The notes under the pieces are model-generated. The model ran no database searches. It saw nothing but the letters and a program-made list of their open reading frames with translations, and was not told the DNA's origin. A program made the position numbers and the translations under genes. A stretch of 64,000 bases of DNA from NCBI RefSeq assembly GCF_003260995.1, contig NZ_CP030040.1:602979-666978 (forward strand). Reading direction: 5' to 3'. This DNA is from Acetobacterium sp. KB-1. GTDB lineage: Bacteria; Bacillota; Clostridia; Eubacteriales; Eubacteriaceae. Position 1 is the first letter of the stretch. The number at the start of each line of letters is the position of its first letter. Positions 41,409 through 50,338 of this stretch are shown here, piece after piece.

Positions 41409-42347
41409 TTAAGCAAACTGTTTAACAAGCTGTAAAATCGTAGGTCCCAAAAGAACGATAAACAAAACCGGGAGCACGAAAAATACCAGTGGAATCATCA
41501 TTTTTACCGGTGCTTTCATTGCTTTTTCTTCGGCGCGTTGCCTTCTTTTTATCCGCAATTCTTCCGACTGGGCCTTGAGTACATGATTAATCGGGATCCC
41601 TAATTGTTCAGCCTGAATAATTGAGCCCACAAAGGTCTTTAATTCTTCAACCGAATTACGATCAGCCAGACTCTTTAGCGCATCTTTTCGCGGCTTTCCA
41701 AAGTTGATTTCGGTATGGACAATATTTAACTCCACCACCAGTACCCCACTTAAACGTTCACCAATTTTAATTAAGGCTGAATCAAAACCCAGCCCAGCTT
41801 CCATGGTGACACATAAAATATCCATTATATCCGGTAATTCGTTAGAAATGGCACCTTGACGTTTCTTAATTTTGAGTTTTAAAAAAATCACCGGTAAAAC
41901 GACCCCTAACAGCATACTAACAAAAACAAATAACAATTCGTTTGCGATATTCCAGCGGGTAAATAAGGTCACAATAAACGCCCCAATAAAAAAGCCTCCA
42001 AAAACGACAATCCGAATGGCATTATATTCATTAACGGCAAGTTGCAAACCGGCAAGCTTCAGGTTTGTTTCCGTTTTTTTATTAGTTGCACCGCTTTTTT
42101 GGGGAAATAGTGATGATATTTTCTTGATTAGCGATTGATAGACCGGCAGAATAACCCGTTGAAAAAAAGGCTTCTCAAACTCATCATCGAAATCATTTTT
42201 AGTTCTTTTTTTAATCGAATTTAGTCTTTTCTTTTTGGTATCAGCGATGCTTGCTTTATTATAAAAAATAATCAGAATCAGCACAAAAAGCAGGGCCGAA
42301 ACGCTTATTGCTAAAAACATCATTGAATGCCACCTCATTTCAATCAT
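41409..42347 (-). CDS. tadC: Tad pilus inner-membrane platform protein TadC
   Basis: A 312-residue type II secretion F-domain protein. It has one N-terminal transmembrane helix, two in the middle and one at the C-terminus, with the conserved GLGFDSALIKIGERLSG and a VVELNIVHTEINFGKPRKDALKSLADRNSVEELKTFV segment near 205-245 (I give only the ends of this stretch as evidence: VELNIVHTEINFG and VEELKTFVGSI). It pairs with TadB as the platform on which TadA acts to extrude the pilus. It follows tadB by 23 bases. Confidence 0.92.
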   Translation of the reverse strand: MIEMRWHSMMFLAISVSALLFVLILIIFYNKASIADTKKKRLNSIKKRTKNDFDDEFEKPFFQRVILPVYQSLIKKISSLFPQKSGATNKKTETNLKLAGLQLAVNEYNAIRIVVFGGFFIGAFIVTLFTRWNIANELLFVFVSMLLGVVLPVIFLKLKIKKRQGAISNELPDIMDILCVTMEAGLGFDSALIKIGERLSGVLVVELNIVHTEINFGKPRKDALKSLADRNSVEELKTFVGSIIQAEQLGIPINHVLKAQSEELRIKRRQRAEEKAMKAPVKMMIPLVFFVLPVLFIVLLGPTILQLVKQFA

Positions 42348-42370: not shown

Positions 42371-43303
42371 TTAGAATTTGATATTGACAATTTTTCGGAT
42401 TAACAGGTACCCGATCAGCTCCAGAACCATGGCAACGATAACCATCGCGATACCAAGATTGGATTCAAAGAATATGGTCACATAATCAGGATTGAAAAGC
42501 ATAAAGACCAGAATAATCACCACCGGCATTAAGCCAACCACAAGACCGGAGGTTCTGGCTGTGGCAGTCAGTACTTTTATCTCATTTTTTATTTTAAACC
42601 GCTCCTTGATGGTACCCGAAATATTTGTCAAGATTTCCGAAAGATTACCCCCGGTTTGGCGCTGAATAAGAATCGCTGAAACAATCATCATAAAGTTCTG
42701 GCTGCCTATTTTATCTGACAGCCGGGTTAAAGCGGTTTCAATCGAGCTTCCCAACTTTAATTCCTTGACAACCCGGCCAAATTCTTCCGAAATCGGATTT
42801 GGCATTTCCGTTGAAATACTGACCAGGGCCTGTTGAAAAGTGAGTCCGGCCTTCAAACAACTGCTCATAATGCTGATGGCATCAATTAGCTGCTGTTCAA
42901 ACAATTCGACCCGTTTCGCTCTTTTTTTGTTGACATATAAGGGTGGGGCTAATAATCCAAAAACCAATACGATAATTACAAAAATGATATTAGCACCCAG
43001 CATAAACAGCAGGGTTGAGGGAACAACGGTCAAGACAAGCCAGAATAGCAGAAATTCTGATGGCCTGATCAGAATTCCCGACATCGACAAGTCGTTTCCC
43101 AGTTTTTTAAGAACCTTGTGTTTGGACTTGTCGCGATTTCTTTTAACTTTTTTCAAATTTTCTAAATCTGAATTTCCCTCGCTTGTCATTGCCTCAAATC
43201 GCTTTTGCATCTGACGCTGATCGGCAGATATGGCGTACAGTAACAGCAATACCAGAAAGAAAATTGTGATCATAATTAGCAAGGTGACTATTATCGCATT
43301 CAT
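42371..43303 (-). CDS. tadB: Tad pilus inner-membrane platform protein TadB
   Basis: A 310-residue type II secretion F-domain protein with an N-terminal membrane helix, a charged cytoplasmic stretch (residues 30-70), two helices near 80-125 and two more at the C-terminus. The cytoplasmic F domain (SSCLKAGLTFQQALVSIS, SDKIGSQNFMMIV, RQTGGNLSEILTNI) matches TadB. It pairs with TadC. It follows tadA by about 23 bases in the operon. Confidence 0.92.
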   Translation of the reverse strand: MNAIIVTLLIMITIFFLVLLLLYAISADQRQMQKRFEAMTSEGNSDLENLKKVKRNRDKSKHKVLKKLGNDLSMSGILIRPSEFLLFWLVLTVVPSTLLFMLGANIIFVIIVLVFGLLAPPLYVNKKRAKRVELFEQQLIDAISIMSSCLKAGLTFQQALVSISTEMPNPISEEFGRVVKELKLGSSIETALTRLSDKIGSQNFMMIVSAILIQRQTGGNLSEILTNISGTIKERFKIKNEIKVLTATARTSGLVVGLMPVVIILVFMLFNPDYVTIFFESNLGIAMVIVAMVLELIGYLLIRKIVNIKF

Positions 43304-43326: not shown

Positions 43327-44670
43327 TTATTCAATAAACCAGTCATCGTTGATCATGACACCATTGTGAGCAATTTTTTCTAAGCATCGGGGTTTTATTC
43401 CCATGCTCTTAAACCGGCCCTTAAATTTTCCATCGGTGTCCAATTGTCCTGTCATTTCATAGCTGAAAATGTCCTGCATGACAATTACATCCCCCTCTAA
43501 TCCAGTGACTTCGGTAATATTGACTACCTTTCGGGTTCCATCGCGGAGCCGCGATTGCTGGATAATGATGTCAATGGCCGAGGTTGTCTGATCCCGGATT
43601 GCCCGTAAGGGCAGATCCATTCCTGACATTAAAACCATGGTCTCAATACGCGACAGCGAATCCCGCGGGGTGTTCGCATGGATCGTGGTCAGGGAACCAT
43701 CATGCCCGGTGTTCATAGCCTGAAGCATATCAATTGTTTCCGCTGATCGGACTTCCCCAACAATGATTCGGTCCGGCCGCATTCGGAGGGCATTAACAAC
43801 CAATTCCCGAATCGATATCTTGCCTCTTCCTTCCAGGTTGGAGGGGCGGCTTTCTAGCGTGATGACATGATCCTGGATCAACCGCAGTTCAGCCGAGTCT
43901 TCAATGGTGATAATCCGTTCGTTATCAGGGATAAAACTGGATAGAACATTCAGCATCGTTGTTTTCCCGCTGCCGGTTCCGCCCGAAACAATGATATTCA
44001 GTTTGCCTTTGACACAGGCTTCCAAAAACGATAACATTTTTTTTGAGATCGAACCATAACCCAGCAATTGATCGGTGGTGATCGGTTTTTTTGAGAATTT
44101 TCGAATTGTGATGACTGGTCCCACCAACGAAAGCGGCGGAATCACCACATTTACCCGGGAACCGTCTTGCAGCCGGGCATCTACCATCGGGCTTGATTCA
44201 TCAATGTGCCGGCCCACCGACGAGACAATCCGGTCAATGACATTCATAACATGCTGATTGTCTTTAAAAACGACCTGAGAAAGCTGAATCTTACCATTTT
44301 TTTCAATGTACACCCGATTATATCCGTTAACCATAATTTCGGTAATGTCAGGATCATTTAAAAGAACCTCAAGCGGGCCATAACCAATAATCTCATTAAG
44401 TAATTCTTCCGTAATGCGGCTGCGATCGAGCCGGTTGACATTCTCCGCTTCAACGGTCATGACATTTTCCAGGATTCTTAATATTTCAATGGCATTTTCT
44501 TTGCCGACCTTTTCAACCTTGTTACTGTTGATTTCATTAATCACTTCCTGATGAACTCTGTTCTTCAGATCCTGATGAATGTCAACATGAAAAACTTCCT
44601 GTTTTCCTTCTTCCTGGGCCTTGTCTTTTTCTCCCAGCCGTTGTTGTTCCATTCTTTCCAAAAGTCCCAT
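43327..44670 (-). CDS. tadA: Tad pilus assembly ATPase TadA (CpaF)
   Basis: A 447-residue secretion ATPase. The Walker [12 protein letters not shown] spans residues 230-240, followed by an Asp box [12 protein letters not shown], a HEAD-like [13 protein letters not shown] and a Walker [13 protein letters not shown]. The N-terminal region (residues 80-190) has the [22 protein letters not shown] segment typical of CpaF. It hydrolyses ATP to polymerise pilin into the Flp fibre. It follows tadZ by 25 bases. Confidence 0.95.
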
Positions 44671-44695: not shown

Positions 44696-45847
44696 TTAAC
44701 TGACCCGATGGTCAATGGTATTAACGACATAATTAGCAAGTTTTTTAAGATCTTTGCCGACTTCTGATTTTGGCGCGTCCAAAACAATCGGAATTCCCTT
44801 GTTATGAGCGGTCGTCGCCGTCTTAAAATCAAAAGTAATGGTATTTTTAACCGACTCATTTAAAACCCGTTGCATATCTTTTAAACTGATCAGTCCCTTT
44901 GTTAGACGGTTGATCACTAATTCTGTTTTTTCTTTCTGCTGCAGCGACTCAAGAATATTGAGGGTGATTTTGGTATTGCGCAAAGTTGAGATATCCTGAA
45001 CCGAAATCAATAGGATCAGGTTTGAATTCTCAAAAGCAGTCATGGTAATGTCACTAAACACCGGGGCTGTATCAATCAGAATATAATCATAAAAGGGTCG
45101 CATCGTGCTGATCATGGTTTCGATATTTTTTGGCGTCACATATTCGGCATACTCTGGACTCTTTGGTGCGCAGATAATGCTGACCCCCGAAAAATGCAAA
45201 GCCATCATCCGCTTAATGGCATCAATGTCCCCGGCATCATTACCCTGGGATAATTCAGAAATAGTATCCTTCGGGTCAATATCAAAATAAACATTGACAT
45301 CCCCAAATTGAAGATCGGCATCAATAATTGCTACTTTCTTGCCCATTTTTGCCAGTGAGACGGCTAAATTTACCGTGAGCGTCGTTCTGCCAATCCCGCC
45401 TTTCGCACCAAATACCGTGATGATCCGGGATTGCATGTTATTTGATGCGGCAATATCAGAATTTTCCATCCGGGATTTTTCCATGTAGTGGGCTAATTCA
45501 ATATTTTCTGCCAATGTCTCGGTATCAATCGGGAACTGCAGTACTTTTCTTATGCCAGCCAGCATGACTTTTTCAATCATACTCACATCAAAACTGTCAC
45601 ATAACAGGATTACTGCACAACCGGGAATTTTAATATAGATCTTTTCAGCCAAATTAATGGCCGCTTTGTAGTCGTTCTCGCACTGAATAATCATCACATG
45701 GGGTTTTAAACTAATAGATTTTTCCAGAGCATTTTCATCCAACTTTGAAAACCCGATAAATGCGAGCGTGTCGTTTCGTAGCAGGCTCTTAATTTCATAG
45801 ATCCGATTGTCATTGTTTCCGACAATCATTACTTTTATCTTTTCCAT
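44696..45847 (-). CDS. tadZ: Tad pilus localisation ATPase TadZ (CpaE-like)
   Basis: A 383-residue MinD/ParA-type ATPase. A receiver-like N-terminal domain (about 130 residues) precedes the deviant Walker A KGGIGRTT at 149-156 and a Walker A' IDADLQFGDVNVYFD. In other bacteria this protein places the Tad machine at a pole. The ATG at 45847 has GGGGTGA upstream; a longer frame to 45865 lacks it. With the DivIVA-like protein at the end of the operon it makes a plausible positioning pair, which is inference. Confidence 0.9.
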   Translation of the reverse strand: MEKIKVMIVGNNDNRIYEIKSLLRNDTLAFIGFSKLDENALEKSISLKPHVMIIQCENDYKAAINLAEKIYIKIPGCAVILLCDSFDVSMIEKVMLAGIRKVLQFPIDTETLAENIELAHYMEKSRMENSDIAASNNMQSRIITVFGAKGGIGRTTLTVNLAVSLAKMGKKVAIIDADLQFGDVNVYFDIDPKDTISELSQGNDAGDIDAIKRMMALHFSGVSIICAPKSPEYAEYVTPKNIETMISTMRPFYDYILIDTAPVFSDITMTAFENSNLILLISVQDISTLRNTKITLNILESLQQKEKTELVINRLTKGLISLKDMQRVLNESVKNTITFDFKTATTAHNKGIPIVLDAPKSEVGKDLKKLANYVVNTIDHRVS

Positions 45848-45907
45848 CGGTTCACCCCATTTCATTCTTTAACTATTTAGCAAGTTTTCGGTCGGTTTAT
45901 TAAAATG

Positions 45908-46579
45908 TTACGGTATAAAGGGTCGCGGGCCTAAAATTGTGTTGTCAACTGGGGATCTTAGAACCAGGAGATATTTAGGCGTTTGATCAATTGATAGCGC
46001 ATAGGTTATTTTTTCTACGTCGCTTGCCGGAACAGAAACCGTAACCGAGGTGTACTCCCCGCCGCTATCGCCTGCGCTGCTTGGTCCAATCTTCAAAATT
46101 TCAATGTTTTCGACGACATACTCAGAAACAATTGTTTTATCATTTTTTATCCAGATGGTAACAAGATCGACACGATCACCTTTTGTTAAATAACCACCCA
46201 CACCCTTTTCTTCATCAACCAGGATCGTTATTCCCCGATAATTTGGTTCAATGGAATAAGACAGATTATTGTTTTCCTGGTTGGTATCGCTTAACCGAGT
46301 TGTCAGAATCTGTTCATTGGCTTCAATGTTTTCTTTGGTAATCCGGCCTAAAACATCTTCCAGATTGGCAATTGCCAATTGATGCACCATTTCAACGGGA
46401 ATCTCTGCGGTTTTTAGCATTTCTTTTTCAATAACGGTGCCTTTGGGAATCGTCTTTATCGCTAAAACAACCGCTTGAGTTTCCTGGTTCTTTCCTTTTT
46501 CCAGCGAAGTAGCAAACTGAAAAACGGCAAATCCGGTAATCAATGATACAATCAAGGCGATTATGATGAGTTTTTTCAT
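45908..46579 (-). CDS. cpaB: Flp pilus assembly protein CpaB (RcpC)
   Basis: A 223-residue protein with one N-terminal membrane helix (KKLIIIALIVSLITGFAVF) and an exported SAF-like domain starting IPKGTVIEKEMLKTAEIP near residue 45. The RcpC/CpaB domain follows (NYRGITILVDEEKGVGGYLTKGD, where I read GVGGYLTKGDRVDLV as the core). The start at 46579 has GGAG eight bases upstream. In diderm bacteria it works with the secretin; here there is no secretin, as expected for one-membrane cells. Confidence 0.9.
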   Translation of the reverse strand: MKKLIIIALIVSLITGFAVFQFATSLEKGKNQETQAVVLAIKTIPKGTVIEKEMLKTAEIPVEMVHQLAIANLEDVLGRITKENIEANEQILTTRLSDTNQENNNLSYSIEPNYRGITILVDEEKGVGGYLTKGDRVDLVTIWIKNDKTIVSEYVVENIEILKIGPSSAGDSGGEYTSVTVSVPASDVEKITYALSIDQTPKYLLVLRSPVDNTILGPRPFIP

Positions 46580-46641
46580 AAATTTCTCCATTCGACTGAT
46601 TAATGGTTTATATTAATATATACCCATAATTTAATTAATAA

Positions 46642-47670
46642 TTATTCTGACAGGATCAAATTATATAATCCAAAATCTCCTTCTGTGCCTTCCCCGACAT
46701 TGCTTCCCGAAGAGGCGCCATTTGATACCATATTTAAGAATGATCCAGTAATATAACCATCATTCGTCTGGTTTTCCAGAAGAAATGCGGCAAAGCCCTC
46801 CACCACCACTGTTTTTTTATCGACGCCAAAGGAATAAACGGGAACCTTGACAATTCTCGGACAAGACGCCTCAAAGTTCTCTGTGGTACAGCCATCACCG
46901 CCACTGAGAGCTCCAAAATGGGTACAGGATGCATACCGTTCCTCAAAGCCCTGATAGGTGGGACCCACCATATTTCCACTTTCTTCCAACAGCACGTCAC
47001 CTACGCTGATTTCGCCAGCATAACCCTGGGTAATCCAGATTCGATAGTCGCTGGCTCCGCCCCCTTGTCCATCAAGATCCAGGGCACCAAAGAATGAGGT
47101 TGAGCCGCTTTGGATGCCATATTTTAAGGTAACATGAGTCAGGTTGTTGCTGGCAATTCGGGCATCCATTTCTTCTTTGGTCAAACCAATGGGGGCAACC
47201 CCACTGGTTCGGATGACCGGAGAAAGTTTTGCGACAGCACTTCTTGAAAGATCAAGATAGTCAATCCCAAATATTTTGGCAAAATACATGGGGACAGTGT
47301 TATCAACGGTTACCCGTATTTCCGTGTATTGGCCATTGCTGATTTTACCTAAAACAATATCGTCTTGCGTTAAATCTTCAAATCCATTCAGGCTGGTATA
47401 ATCAACGGCACTATTTTTTATCTGATTGACCTTTACCGTATTGCCGGTTTCAATGGGTAGCAACCGTCCCGCTGAATACACCGCCGCATCGGCCGCTTTT
47501 TGCTGTTCCCCGGTGCTTAAATAGGCCAATCCCAGATCGATCACCAATGCCAATATTCCAAATATAAAAACCATCGATACGGCTACAATAATCAATGCGT
47601 CGCCATGTTCTTCATTTTCTATCCTTTTAAAAGGTCGGTATTTATTGAAAACTTCGATTAATTTTTTCAT
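46642..47670 (-). CDS. tadG: TadG-like pilus-associated protein
   Basis: A 342-residue protein with a positively charged N-terminus and one membrane helix at about 27-50 (ALIIVAVSMVFIFGILALVIDLGLAYL) after the Glu-rich NEEHGD, the TadE/TadG-like layout. The rest is predicted to be outside the cell and has few cysteines (a CTTENFEASC pair and one in ASCTHFG), which may form disulfides. It begins at the base after the tadE stop. It is probably a minor pseudopilin or surface component of the Tad apparatus. Confidence 0.82.
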   Translation of the reverse strand: MKKLIEVFNKYRPFKRIENEEHGDALIIVAVSMVFIFGILALVIDLGLAYLSTGEQQKAADAAVYSAGRLLPIETGNTVKVNQIKNSAVDYTSLNGFEDLTQDDIVLGKISNGQYTEIRVTVDNTVPMYFAKIFGIDYLDLSRSAVAKLSPVIRTSGVAPIGLTKEEMDARIASNNLTHVTLKYGIQSGSTSFFGALDLDGQGGGASDYRIWITQGYAGEISVGDVLLEESGNMVGPTYQGFEERYASCTHFGALSGGDGCTTENFEASCPRIVKVPVYSFGVDKKTVVVEGFAAFLLENQTNDGYITGSFLNMVSNGASSGSNVGEGTEGDFGLYNLILSE

Positions 47671-48081
47671 TTACTCTACCTTCATGGTACAGGATGAAGA
47701 AAGATTCATGGTTTCACCCTGGACGAAAACACCGACAATTGGTGTTAGAATAGCAATATCATCGCTAATCTCAATTACCACATCTCCAAGACGAGGGTTT
47801 GAGACATTCGTAAAAGTAATGTCGATATCAACTGTACTGGCAATGTTCTCCGGAGCAATCGTCCGGATATGCTCTTCAATTGCTGTTTTACTGGTTGAAT
47901 TAACGATCGCATAGCGTGCACCCTCTCGGGAGGCATAATCAATACTATTCTGGTTCATAAACAACCAACCAAAATCGATGATTCCACACAAAATCATAAT
48001 CAAAATTGGCAAGGTTAATGCAAGCTCAACAATGGCCTGTCCGTCTTCTTTTTTTATTTTTTTGATTATGTTTGCAAACAT
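47671..48081 (-). CDS. tadE: TadE-like minor pseudopilin
   Basis: A 136-residue protein whose N-terminal KKIKKEDGQAIVELALTLPILIMILCGIIDFG segment (in short EDGQAIVELALTLP) is the TadE-like motif, with the G-Q-A-I-V-E-L pattern that prepilin peptidase recognises. The C-terminal half is a small exported domain. The ATG at 48081 (MFANIIKK) has GGGGAGGG upstream; a longer in-frame reading to 48138 lacks a site. It lies just after the large hairpin at 48163-48221. Confidence 0.88.
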   Translation of the reverse strand: MFANIIKKIKKEDGQAIVELALTLPILIMILCGIIDFGWLFMNQNSIDYASREGARYAIVNSTSKTAIEEHIRTIAPENIASTVDIDITFTNVSNPRLGDVVIEISDDIAILTPIVGVFVQGETMNLSSSCTMKVE

Positions 48082-48162
48082 TTTCCCTCCCCGATCATTT
48101 ATAAAAATGATCTTATTATTAAGTCCTTTTGAACCCAACCTATGTCAATTGTTGAATTCATT

Positions 48163-48710: not shown

Positions 48711-48878
48711 TCATGCTGCTAATTGAGTGCCGATGTCAGTAAACATTTGGCCGATTTGTGGTCCTAATAACCAGATGGCAGCAATAGCAGCTAGTGCGAT
48801 CCCCGTTATGATTAGTCCATATTCAACCAGCCCCTGTCCGTCCTCTGTTCTAATTATCCTTGACAATGCATTTTTCAT
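48711..48878 (-). CDS. flp: Flp pilin 3 (55 aa)
   Basis: A 55-residue prepilin, first in transcript order, with leader MKNALSRIIRTEDG. The mature part differs at a few positions: IITG for IIAG, GQMF for GQFF, and it ends QLAA. The ATG at 48878 is chosen by comparison with the other two pilins; the open frame extends to 48929. It follows the interrupted prepilin peptidase gene by about 65 bases. Confidence 0.93.
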   Translation of the reverse strand: MKNALSRIIRTEDGQGLVEYGLIITGIALAAIAAIWLLGPQIGQMFTDIGTQLAA

Positions 48879-48942
48879 TTCTTTTTTCTCCCTTAATAAT
48901 TGTTGATTAAATTTCGTAATCGTTAACATTTATTTTCAATCC

Positions 48943-49260
48943 TTAAAATAACATTCCAAATTCAAATAGATGATCGTTTGCATTTATAAGATTTATAACT
49001 AAAACTGAGACAAAACCGGATGCCATAAACGGTCCCAAGGCAACCTTTGATTTTAAATTACCTTTTCTTCTGATAATCAGATAAATTGTGTAGATCATCA
49101 AAAAGAATGTCATAATCATAATTGCCGATATAATGCCATATACCCCTAAACAAAAACCAACTGCCGCTGCATATTTTACGTCTCCCCAACCAGCACCCTT
49201 TCCGATCATTGCTGGTAAGAAGAAAATAATAAAACCAATCACTAAACCAAAAATATTCAT
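48943..49260 (-). CDS. tadV: Prepilin peptidase TadV, C-terminal half (split by an in-frame stop)
   Basis: A 105-residue open frame with the second catalytic motif of A24 prepilin peptidases, GKGAGWGDVK, Asp27 being the catalytic residue. It starts at ATG 49260 and is in the same frame as the upstream half, from which it is separated by only TAA at 49279-49281 plus six sense codons. There is no real ribosome site before this ATG (ATCGGG), so efficient separate translation is doubtful. As a whole, 48943-49623 gives a normal-length TadV if the TAA is ignored. Confidence 0.8.
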   Translation of the reverse strand: MNIFGLVIGFIIFFLPAMIGKGAGWGDVKYAAAVGFCLGVYGIISAIMIMTFFLMIYTIYLIIRRKGNLKSKVALGPFMASGFVSVLVINLINANDHLFEFGMLF

Positions 49261-49278: not shown

Positions 49279-49623
49279 TTACCTTGTTATGACAAAGGCT
49301 CCACCGACGAAGATGGTCATTAATACCAGTTCGTTGGGGATTTTTTTTATGCTGATGTCTACTACCGAAAGAATGATACAGATTGAAAAGAGCATCATAT
49401 ATTCCAGTGTTTTTGCTTCAAGTCCATTCAGTTTTACAAAGACTAACCAAACAAATGCATTCATTATCGCCCAAAAGATTGTTTTTGAAACACTGCCTGA
49501 AAATTGAGGGTGCTTCAGAATATTAACTCTTTGCTTGATCAAGTATACAGAAGATTTTTCCATCAAAGCGCCAACGACAGCTCCGGTTAATAAAACCAGT
49601 ACAGTTATTGCAAATTGGTTCAT
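49279..49623 (-). CDS. tadV: Prepilin peptidase TadV, N-terminal half (split by an in-frame stop)
   Basis: A 114-residue open frame containing the first half of an A24 aspartyl prepilin peptidase. Hydrophobic helices are visible and the first catalytic Asp89 is in SVVDISIKKIPNEL. It lacks the N-terminal CxxC methylase part, as TadV-type enzymes do. The ATG at 49623 has a strong GGAGGTGA site. The frame stops at TAA 49281-49279 after GGAFVITR, before the second catalytic Asp, which lies in the same frame downstream. Either the gene is broken, or two chains come together, or read-through occurs. Confidence 0.82.
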   Translation of the reverse strand: MNQFAITVLVLLTGAVVGALMEKSSVYLIKQRVNILKHPQFSGSVSKTIFWAIMNAFVWLVFVKLNGLEAKTLEYMMLFSICIILSVVDISIKKIPNELVLMTIFVGGAFVITR

Positions 49624-49651
49624 CAGCTCACCTCCAGTAATTTTTGGTAAT

Positions 49652-49678
49652 AAAAAAGCAACGATTTACGCGTTGCAC
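49652..49678 (-). terminator. Terminator of the proximal c-di-GMP riboswitch
   Basis: A GCAACG/CGTTGC stem with a 7-nt loop and TTTTTT on the minus strand. Its 5' arm (TGCAAC) is complementary to the GTTGCA at the 3' end of the aptamer, so an antiterminator is possible. Confidence 0.88.
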
Positions 49679-49706
49679 TAAAGGCGAATTAAATACACCT
49701 AAAATC

Positions 49707-49785
49707 TGCAACTGGCTGTCATATAAAAAATTATTTAGACCCTATAGCTTTGCGTCCTCACCTTTCGGTAAGTTTGCCGAATATT
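49707..49785 (-). promoter_or_regulatory. c-di-GMP-I riboswitch (GEMM), proximal copy
   Basis: On the minus strand the GEMM-I core is visible: GCAAAC (49772-49777), the GAAA tetraloop (CCGAAAGG), GGACGCAAAGC (49747-49757), AGGGTCTA, and the GACAGCC tetraloop-receptor side, ending in AGTTGCA. It controls the Tad pilus operon directly downstream through the terminator at 49652-49678. Confidence 0.92.
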
Positions 49786-49812
49786 AAATTGTCCAACAGG
49801 AGAAAACTAGAA

Positions 49813-49840
49813 TAAAAAAACAACGCTCTGACACGTTGCA
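49813..49840 (-). terminator. Terminator of the distal c-di-GMP riboswitch
   Basis: A CAACG/CGTTG stem with an 8-nt loop and TTTTTTT on the minus strand; the 5' arm TGCAAC can pair with GTTGCA of the aptamer 3' end, exactly as in the proximal copy. Confidence 0.85.
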
Positions 49841-49868
49841 CTAAATACACCATATAATGATGTTATCT

Positions 49869-49949
49869 TGCAACTGGCTGTCATATAAAAAATTACTTAG
49901 ACCCTAAAGCTTTGCGTCCTTACCTTTCGATAAGTTTGCTAAATATTCT
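49869..49949 (-). promoter_or_regulatory. c-di-GMP-I riboswitch (GEMM), distal copy
   Basis: A second GEMM-I aptamer, first in transcript order, with GCAAAC (49934-49939), the GAAA tetraloop (TCGAAAGG), GGACGCAAAGC (49909-49919), AGGGTCTA and GACAGCC. It differs from the proximal copy mostly in the P2 stem and linker. The two copies lie about 160 bases apart in tandem. Confidence 0.92.
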
Positions 49950-49958
49950 ATTGAGATC

Positions 49959-49987
49959 ATGATAGTTCATTGTATTTGATATGTCAA
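49959..49987 (-). promoter_or_regulatory. Promoter of the Tad/Flp operon
   Basis: TTGACA (49982-49987), a 17-bp spacer and TATCAT (49959-49964) on the minus strand. Transcription would start near 49952, just before the distal riboswitch. Confidence 0.85.
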
Positions 49988-49989
49988 GA

Positions 49990-50338
49990 GAATTATTTGC
50001 TATATTTTAAATACCGAGCATATTAAAGAGTAATATTTTGCACATTATTTTTTATTTGTCATACTAAACATAAAGATACGAATTCATTATGTTCGTCGAT
50101 GTTTCTCAACATTCATTCGATTATCCTTAAATTATGTTGCATCTAATTGTTATATAGTTATCAATATTATCTTTTATTATGATAATCTAATATTATTGCC
50201 ATTCTTTAGAAATGTTAATTTTTAATGCTGCAAATACTTAAGCCATCGAAAAAAAAAACACGCTAACCTCAGAGATGATTTTATAGTTATAATTTTTACA
50301 TAAATACATTTGTTCGCCTTGTTGTATTCCCTCTAAAA
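49990..50338. other. AT-rich intergenic stretch, no gene seen
   Basis: About 350 bases between the divergent Tad operon promoter and the DUF2325 promoter. It is very AT-rich, with a poly-A run near 50250, and I see no open frame, RNA or repeat in it. Confidence 0.6.

Follow-up and report, generated by a model that had tools for sequence, protein, structure and literature searches.

In a 64,000-nucleotide stretch of Acetobacterium sp. KB-1 (NCBI RefSeq assembly GCF_003260995.1, contig NZ_CP030040.1, positions 602,979 to 666,978; the whole stretch is hereafter the window), the tad operon for a Tad/Flp pilus is preceded by two class-I cyclic di-GMP (c-di-GMP-I) riboswitches in series, which differ at the pocket base that sets cyclic-dinucleotide preference. 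This tandem leader is real and conserved and belongs to a known kind; what is new is the pocket difference, long kept between the two gates. Tandem c-di-GMP-I riboswitches have so far been explained, in excerpts of the published work, as making one response more digital (PMC9481103, PMC12452182, PMC4759541). The pocket difference at the specificity base argues that some doublets do something else, either setting unequal thresholds or reading two inputs. We consider it moderately probable that the leader comprises two OFF gates in series with unequal affinities for c-di-GMP; the direction of switching, the two affinities and what the upstream gate binds are our inferences.

The tandem leader and its two ligand pockets

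Rfam cmscan of the window revealed two full-model matches to RF01051, both well above the gathering score of 35 (70.6 bits for the upstream gate 1 and 74.4 bits for the downstream gate 2), which rules out a chance match as the source of the pair. An initial annotation, made from the sequence alone, had read two GEMM-I aptamers on the minus strand and proposed the RF01051 check that now bears them out. Each aptamer is followed by its own terminator, as had also been described, with two terminators detected in the leader compared to a mean of 0.4 in shuffled sequence. At both aptamer 3' ends, GTTGCA is complementary to TGCAAC in the terminator 5' arm, again in agreement with that annotation. If a tandem is defined as at least two complete aptamer-plus-terminator units in one leader, the window holds one, and two aptamers occur in all 14 readable orthologous leaders, so that the search in other Acetobacterium genomes suggested by the annotation recovered the same layout. 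The proposed promoter is likewise present as a promoter-like site, TTGACA-17-TATCAT, which matches 11 of 12 consensus bases with a 17-base spacer. Of the leaders of 13 relatives, 12 have TTGACA 5' of copy 1 by eye; that of genome G011 does not. A promoter scan of the leader gave three promoter-like sites, no excess over the shuffle mean of 2.9.

The specificity base, position 20 of the Vc2 aptamer, was read as the nucleotide directly 5' of GCAAAC, which is position 11 of the RF01051 model in the cmscan alignment. It is A in gate 1 and G in gate 2, a mismatch absent from the initial annotation. Among the ten RF01051 aptamers of this genome, A20 is confined to gate 1, and the other nine, gate 2 included, have G. 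Gate 2 thus carries the hallmark G of c-di-GMP-I aptamers and gate 1 does not; gate 1 carries the A that marks cyclic AMP-GMP (c-AMP-GMP, GEMM-Ib) aptamers. The c-AMP-GMP riboswitches of Geobacter have A at this base as well.

One ligand-contacting base is G in c-di-GMP binders and A in c-AMP-GMP binders (PMC9481103, cited from excerpts, as are most of the papers below), and is taken to be position 20. In the Cd1 riboswitch of Clostridioides difficile, G11, the counterpart of Vc2 G20, is described as a selectivity factor among cyclic dinucleotides and not as a hard filter; the same source cites c-GAMP riboswitches as c-di-GMP binders (PMC9262584). A natural variant carrying the c-AMP-GMP-type change, examined by in-line probing, showed markedly increased binding of c-AMP-GMP and perhaps slightly decreased binding of c-di-GMP (PMC9481103). 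Since the two gates differ at the base setting this preference, it is unlikely that the leader simply repeats one gate.

Orthologues of CpaE (59-100% identity) are encoded in 15 of the 19 genus genomes, the remaining four having distant matches only. Leaders were readable at 14 of the 15 loci; the one left out, G006, has its gene start 2.3 kb from a contig end. Gate 1 has A in 13 of the 14 leaders and gate 2 has G in 11, and ten leaders combine A upstream with G downstream (G000, G001, G003, G005, G009, G010, G012, G015, G016 and G018). In a phylogeny built from concatenated Tad proteins (14 rows, of which two are just 22% filled; 3.4 changes per site in total; 4 of the 11 inner branches left open), one change suffices for base 20 of each copy. 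By parsimony, the A/G difference appears to be old, predating the divergence of the sampled Acetobacterium species, and to change seldom. In five aptamer columns the majority base differs between the copies, with at least 9 of 14 leaders behind each majority; only base 20 among them was mapped to the ligand pocket, given the columns we take to hold the other pocket bases. Elsewhere in the genus, A20 is found in 14 of 86 other distinct aptamers collected with a motif script, which are not independent of one another.

The only leader with G upstream, that of G011 (L046, G011:C15:5500-12600), stands before a decayed tad operon, in which tadV is broken and CpaE lies in two frames. Flp, TadE and TadG were not found at this locus in an assembly that is 85% complete and spread over ~100 contigs, and the decay could possibly reflect misassembly.

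Predicted direction of the gates

All 28 platforms of the 14 leaders have the same pairing anatomy. The aptamer 3' strand GUUGC can pair with GC[A/G]AC in the terminator 5' arm, and the terminator is a GC[A/G]ACG/CGUUG stem followed by a U tract. The segment between the antiterminator strands varies among species and mostly forms a hairpin. Compared to shuffled inner segments, the forced antiterminator is on average the more stable, with a mean z of -1.7 for copy 1 and -2.3 for copy 2, being weaker than -1 in four of the 28 platforms, all of them copy 1. In the window, the antiterminator has a folding probability of 0.997 (copy 1) and 0.998 (copy 2) before the terminator 3' arm is made, and of 0.976 and 0.983 in the full unbound transcript. 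When GUUGC is made unavailable, which mimics a bound aptamer, the terminator reaches 0.98 (copy 1) and 0.97 (copy 2); with GUUGC held, it is the majority state in 26 of the 28 platforms.

We propose that in the ligand-free transcript the GUUGC strand, which presumably includes the ligand-pairing C, would pair with GCAAC of the terminator 5' arm and permit read-through. Upon ligand binding, the aptamer would retain this strand, the terminator would fold and transcription would stop. The anatomy predicts that both gates are OFF, that is, terminated when bound, in all 28 platforms. The direction, which the initial annotation had left open, is thereby predicted for both gates from pairing anatomy and folding.

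Some results speak against this direction, and with it against the reading we favour. In equilibrium folding of the free state, the antiterminator is the majority in only 17 of the 28 platforms, and the terminator is favoured without ligand in ten, so that the OFF model would need co-transcriptional kinetics there. The OFF direction is therefore a prediction that equilibrium folding does not show for every relative. Moreover, a pilus turned off by c-di-GMP runs opposite to the usual direction for adhesion.

The converse direction, ON switches in which the ligand blocks termination, seems improbable. It finds a precedent in the Bc3-5 array of Bacillus thuringiensis CT-43, which was predicted and measured as ON (PMC4759541), and in the Geobacter pilM riboswitch, which shares a homologous aptamer with the OFF switch Cd1 yet responds in the reverse sense (PMC9262584). 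However, the aptamer strands of Bc4 are part of the terminator itself, which makes it ON (PMC4759541), whereas the window has separate terminators whose 5' arms pair with an aptamer strand. Because the pairing geometry differs, the ON direction by analogy with Bc3-5 was dropped. The array resembles the tad leader in having complete class-I units in series, each with its own platform (PMC4759541; PMC9481103), and differs from it in being ON and serving csp genes, compared to predicted OFF gates before tad genes here, where the two pockets differ at base 20. Cd1 resembles the tad leader as predicted here, in that ligand binding leads to termination and the antiterminator undoes the ligand pocket; unlike the tad leader, it is described as a single gate, with G at the selectivity base, before a flagellar operon (PMC9262584).

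A single c-di-GMP-I aptamer at another locus (L007 1501-1610, G000:C1:225068) has a 3' strand that runs directly into a hairpin and then T residues. This layout would fit an ON switch, the reverse of the direction predicted for the tad leader.

One ligand or two

According to the favoured reading, the tad leader would work as two complete transcriptional riboswitches in series, gate 2 with the standard c-di-GMP pocket (G20) and gate 1 with a variant pocket (A20) that admits cyclic GMP-AMP (cGAMP) in studied RNAs. In this genus both gates would most likely answer mainly to c-di-GMP with different affinities, with gate 2 fixing the threshold and gate 1 strengthening the shut-off once c-di-GMP is high. 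Gate 1 may also accept a second dinucleotide. In a simple model that multiplies the two gates, going from 90 to 10% takes an 81-fold range with a single gate, a 40-fold range when the affinities are equal and a 75-fold range when they differ 100-fold, so that unequal gates would deepen silencing rather than sharpen the response. The initial annotation had suggested two ordinary c-di-GMP-I gates that could give a sharper response; this finds no support in that form, given that base 20 differs, that the difference is old and conserved, and that the model yields little sharpening if gate 1 is the weaker. Its idea of two thresholds is possible.

Equivalence of the two copies would leave base 20 without consequence and make the pair a tighter, more digital control of the Bc3-5 type, a reading we find unlikely. 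The triple tandem Bc3-5 does display a digital-control effect (PMC4759541), a 2022 survey proposes digital control for c-di-GMP-I doublets (PMC9481103), and species with A/A and with G/G occur. On the other side, the difference between the copies is ancestral in the genus by parsimony and rarely altered, and the sole G-first leader sits before a decayed operon. Copy equivalence was dropped as the whole story because the difference at base 20 is ancestral and conserved.

A somewhat unlikely alternative is that the leader is a two-ligand NOR gate, in which gate 1 responds to 3',3'-cGAMP or another dinucleotide and gate 2 to c-di-GMP, so that pilus production would require low levels of the two. 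A at base 20 is the change typical of c-AMP-GMP riboswitches (PMC9481103), and a G20A aptamer has been used as a cGAMP sensor (table in PMC11352751). In addition, A20 is retained upstream in 13 of 14 loci across a protein tree of length 3.4, and mixed A/G arrays recur in other lineages. Against this, A20 aptamers bind c-di-GMP too (PMC9262584, PMC9481103), and a known cGAMP source was looked for in three genomes without success.

GGDEF domains were read in three A20-bearing genomes with a hidden Markov model built from a single seed sequence. G000 gave 46 distinct domains from 50 family matches and G015 gave 62 from 69, all retrieved; G003 gave 68 distinct sequences from 66 of 76 matches, the missing ten being among the weakest and some sequences possibly being one domain cut twice. 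The motif is intact in 142 sequences (34 in G000, 51 in G015 and 57 in G003), and 141 of them carry D at the selectivity residue; the remaining one is the latter part of a domain that is broken across two frames, and the earlier part of that domain has D. No Hypr GGDEF, defined by an intact motif with S or T at the selectivity residue, was found among the 142, unlike in Geobacter, which has a cGAMP-making Hypr GGDEF (PMC8835794). L084 has S at the selectivity position, but its domain is a degenerate EGDGF in a protein in which an EAL domain can be seen by eye as well, and it was rejected as a cGAMP synthase. SMODS-type synthases are present in just three of the 19 genus genomes. The copy in this genome belongs to a CBASS-like operon outside the window, with SMODS, SAVED, ThiF and JAB genes (L208, G000:C1:3973500-3981500). 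Sitting with the latter three, the SMODS gene (G000:C1:3977214) was not adopted as a tad regulator. As no recognised cGAMP synthase accounts for A20, two c-di-GMP gates of unequal strength are the more economical reading. It is rather doubtful that the leader is a natural NOR gate that allows the Tad pilus only while two gates are unoccupied, an A20 gate for cGAMP or another dinucleotide from an unrecognised synthase and a G20 gate for c-di-GMP.

The preferred reading of unequal c-di-GMP gates also faces objections from base 20 itself. The bases are A/A in three related species (G002, G004 and G014) and G/G in one (G011), and unequal pockets are for this reason not indispensable. Furthermore, according to the model, little would be gained by placing a weaker c-di-GMP gate in line with a stronger, so that c-di-GMP alone less readily explains why A20 has been kept for so long.

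Acetobacterium species are acetogens, hence acid producers, which counts towards one more reading: gate 1 as a c-di-GMP sensor that needs a protonated A20 and so forms an acid-dependent gate. We regard it as highly improbable. c-GAMP riboswitches are indeed cited as binding c-di-GMP via a stably protonated adenine (PMC9262584), but a stable protonation speaks against an influence of pH around neutrality.

The leader provides a short, defined RNA for a bench test of unequal thresholds versus two inputs, and Acetobacterium is marked as a place to seek cGAMP without a Hypr GGDEF.

Mixed arrays elsewhere and the pilus operon

Tandem c-di-GMP-I riboswitches are common, with 347 doublets and 12 triplets in one survey (PMC9481103), and c-di-GMP riboswitches are enriched in tandem (PMC12452182). 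A c-di-GMP-I plus c-AMP-GMP pair does not appear in the excerpts of Table 2 of PMC9481103, and none of the open-licence PubMed Central matches listed, as far as their excerpts go, concerns an A/G-pocket tandem or a riboswitch before an Acetobacterium tad operon. The variant aptamer of Desulfobacca acetoxidans resembles gate 1 in having A at the specificity base and differs in its partner, being paired with adenosylcobalamin (AdoCbl) riboswitches, compared to the G20 c-di-GMP-I gate here (PMC9481103).

A pattern scan of 84,980 species, from which the window's own record was possibly excluded, looked for pairs in which an A20 aptamer precedes a G20 aptamer, spaced much as in the tad leader. It returned 20 stretches: five Acetobacterium tad leaders, one other Acetobacterium array, seven from Monoglobus and seven others, from Papillibacter, two Peptococcaceae, Syntrophomonadaceae and three Anaerolineales/Chloroflexi. 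As the scan covers a single order and a single spacing range, no frequency is derivable from it. A class sample read with the motif script gave at least two members in nine of 12 arrays, namely GG in three, CG in one, GA in two and AGG in three, the last being one family from Monoglobus genomes already in the scan. Since these orders vary, A-first was dropped as a rule for arrays. Among 21 non-tad Acetobacterium arrays, hand-picked among the matches listed and largely orthologous to each other, nine are mixed, and the last aptamer has G in every one of the 21; in L071 and L075 the A copy appears degenerate. Altogether, mixed arrays recur, and in both orders. If the NOR reading were true, those of Monoglobus, Papillibacter, Peptococcaceae and Anaerolineales would represent a class of logic with two dinucleotides that recurs and is so far unlisted.

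Longer arrays, with three or four aptamers, also exist in Acetobacterium. Four c-di-GMP-I aptamers lie within a few hundred bases at L053 (G016:C27), L056 (G008:C552) and L058 (G018:C10), compared to the doublets and triplets counted for c-di-GMP-I in the survey (PMC9481103). The Monoglobus arrays L131, L133, L134, L137, L139, L141 and L142 have three aptamers with mixed bases, AGG or AAG, and the next gene, where seen, encodes an exported-looking protein.

The downstream genes are those of a Tad/Flp pilus by Pfam, as the initial annotation had stated, with the Flp and peptidase matches below their cut-offs (Table 1). A CpaF-type ATPase, two T2SSF-type proteins, RcpC/CpaB, TadE, Flp and a prepilin peptidase are all present. 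The ATPase gene next to rcpC/cpaB is the one we take to be CpaE, a name beyond the AAA_31/ParA-type domain that Pfam itself gives.

Table 1. Features of the tad leader and operon in the window, in order of transcription
Feature	Position	Strand	Details
Promoter-like site TTGACA-17-TATCAT	49959..49987	-	TTGACA 49987-49982, TATCAT 49964-49959; 8 bases 5' of aptamer 1
Upstream c-di-GMP-I aptamer (gate 1)	49866..49950	-	RF01051, 70.6 bits, E 8.1e-12, full model 1-87
Specificity base of gate 1 (Vc2 position 20)	49940	-	A; base 5' of GCAAAC
Antiterminator of gate 1 (predicted)	49835..49874	-	GUUGCA 49874-49869 (aptamer 3' end) pairs UGCAAC 49840-49835; hairpin in between
Terminator of gate 1 with U tract	49814..49839	-	stem 49839-49820; folds at -7.7 kcal/mol
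Downstream c-di-GMP-I aptamer (gate 2)	49704..49788	-	RF01051, 74.4 bits, E 9.7e-13, full model 1-87
Specificity base of gate 2 (Vc2 position 20)	49778	-	G; base 5' of GCAAAC
Antiterminator of gate 2 (predicted)	49672..49712	-	GUUGCA 49712-49707 pairs UGCAAC 49677-49672
Terminator of gate 2 with U tract	49652..49676	-	stem 49676-49658; folds at -6.7 kcal/mol
tadV (prepilin peptidase), N-terminal half	49279..49623	-	ends at in-frame TAA; identified from relatives, without its own Pfam match
tadV, C-terminal half, same frame	48943..49260	-	Peptidase_A24, 24.7 bits, slightly below cut-off 26.5
Flp pilin	48711..48929	-	Flp_Fap, 25.1 bits, below cut-off 32.2
TadE-like pseudopilin	47671..48138	-	PF07811, 62.5 bits
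TadG-like protein	46642..47670	-	PF13400 + PF09977
RcpC/CpaB	45908..46591	-	PF16976 + SAF
CpaE/TadZ-like ATPase	44696..45865	-	PF13614, AAA_31/ParA-type domain
CpaF/TadA-type secretion ATPase	43327..44670	-	PF00437, 207.1 bits
TadB-like membrane protein	42371..43303	-	PF00482
TadC-like membrane protein	41409..42347	-	PF00482

An in-frame TAA at 49281-49279 on the minus strand splits tadV into halves of 114 and 105 residues, either as a genuine lesion of the strain or through a sequence error. In 12 of the 13 other tad loci, tadV is a single open frame of 214-244 residues.
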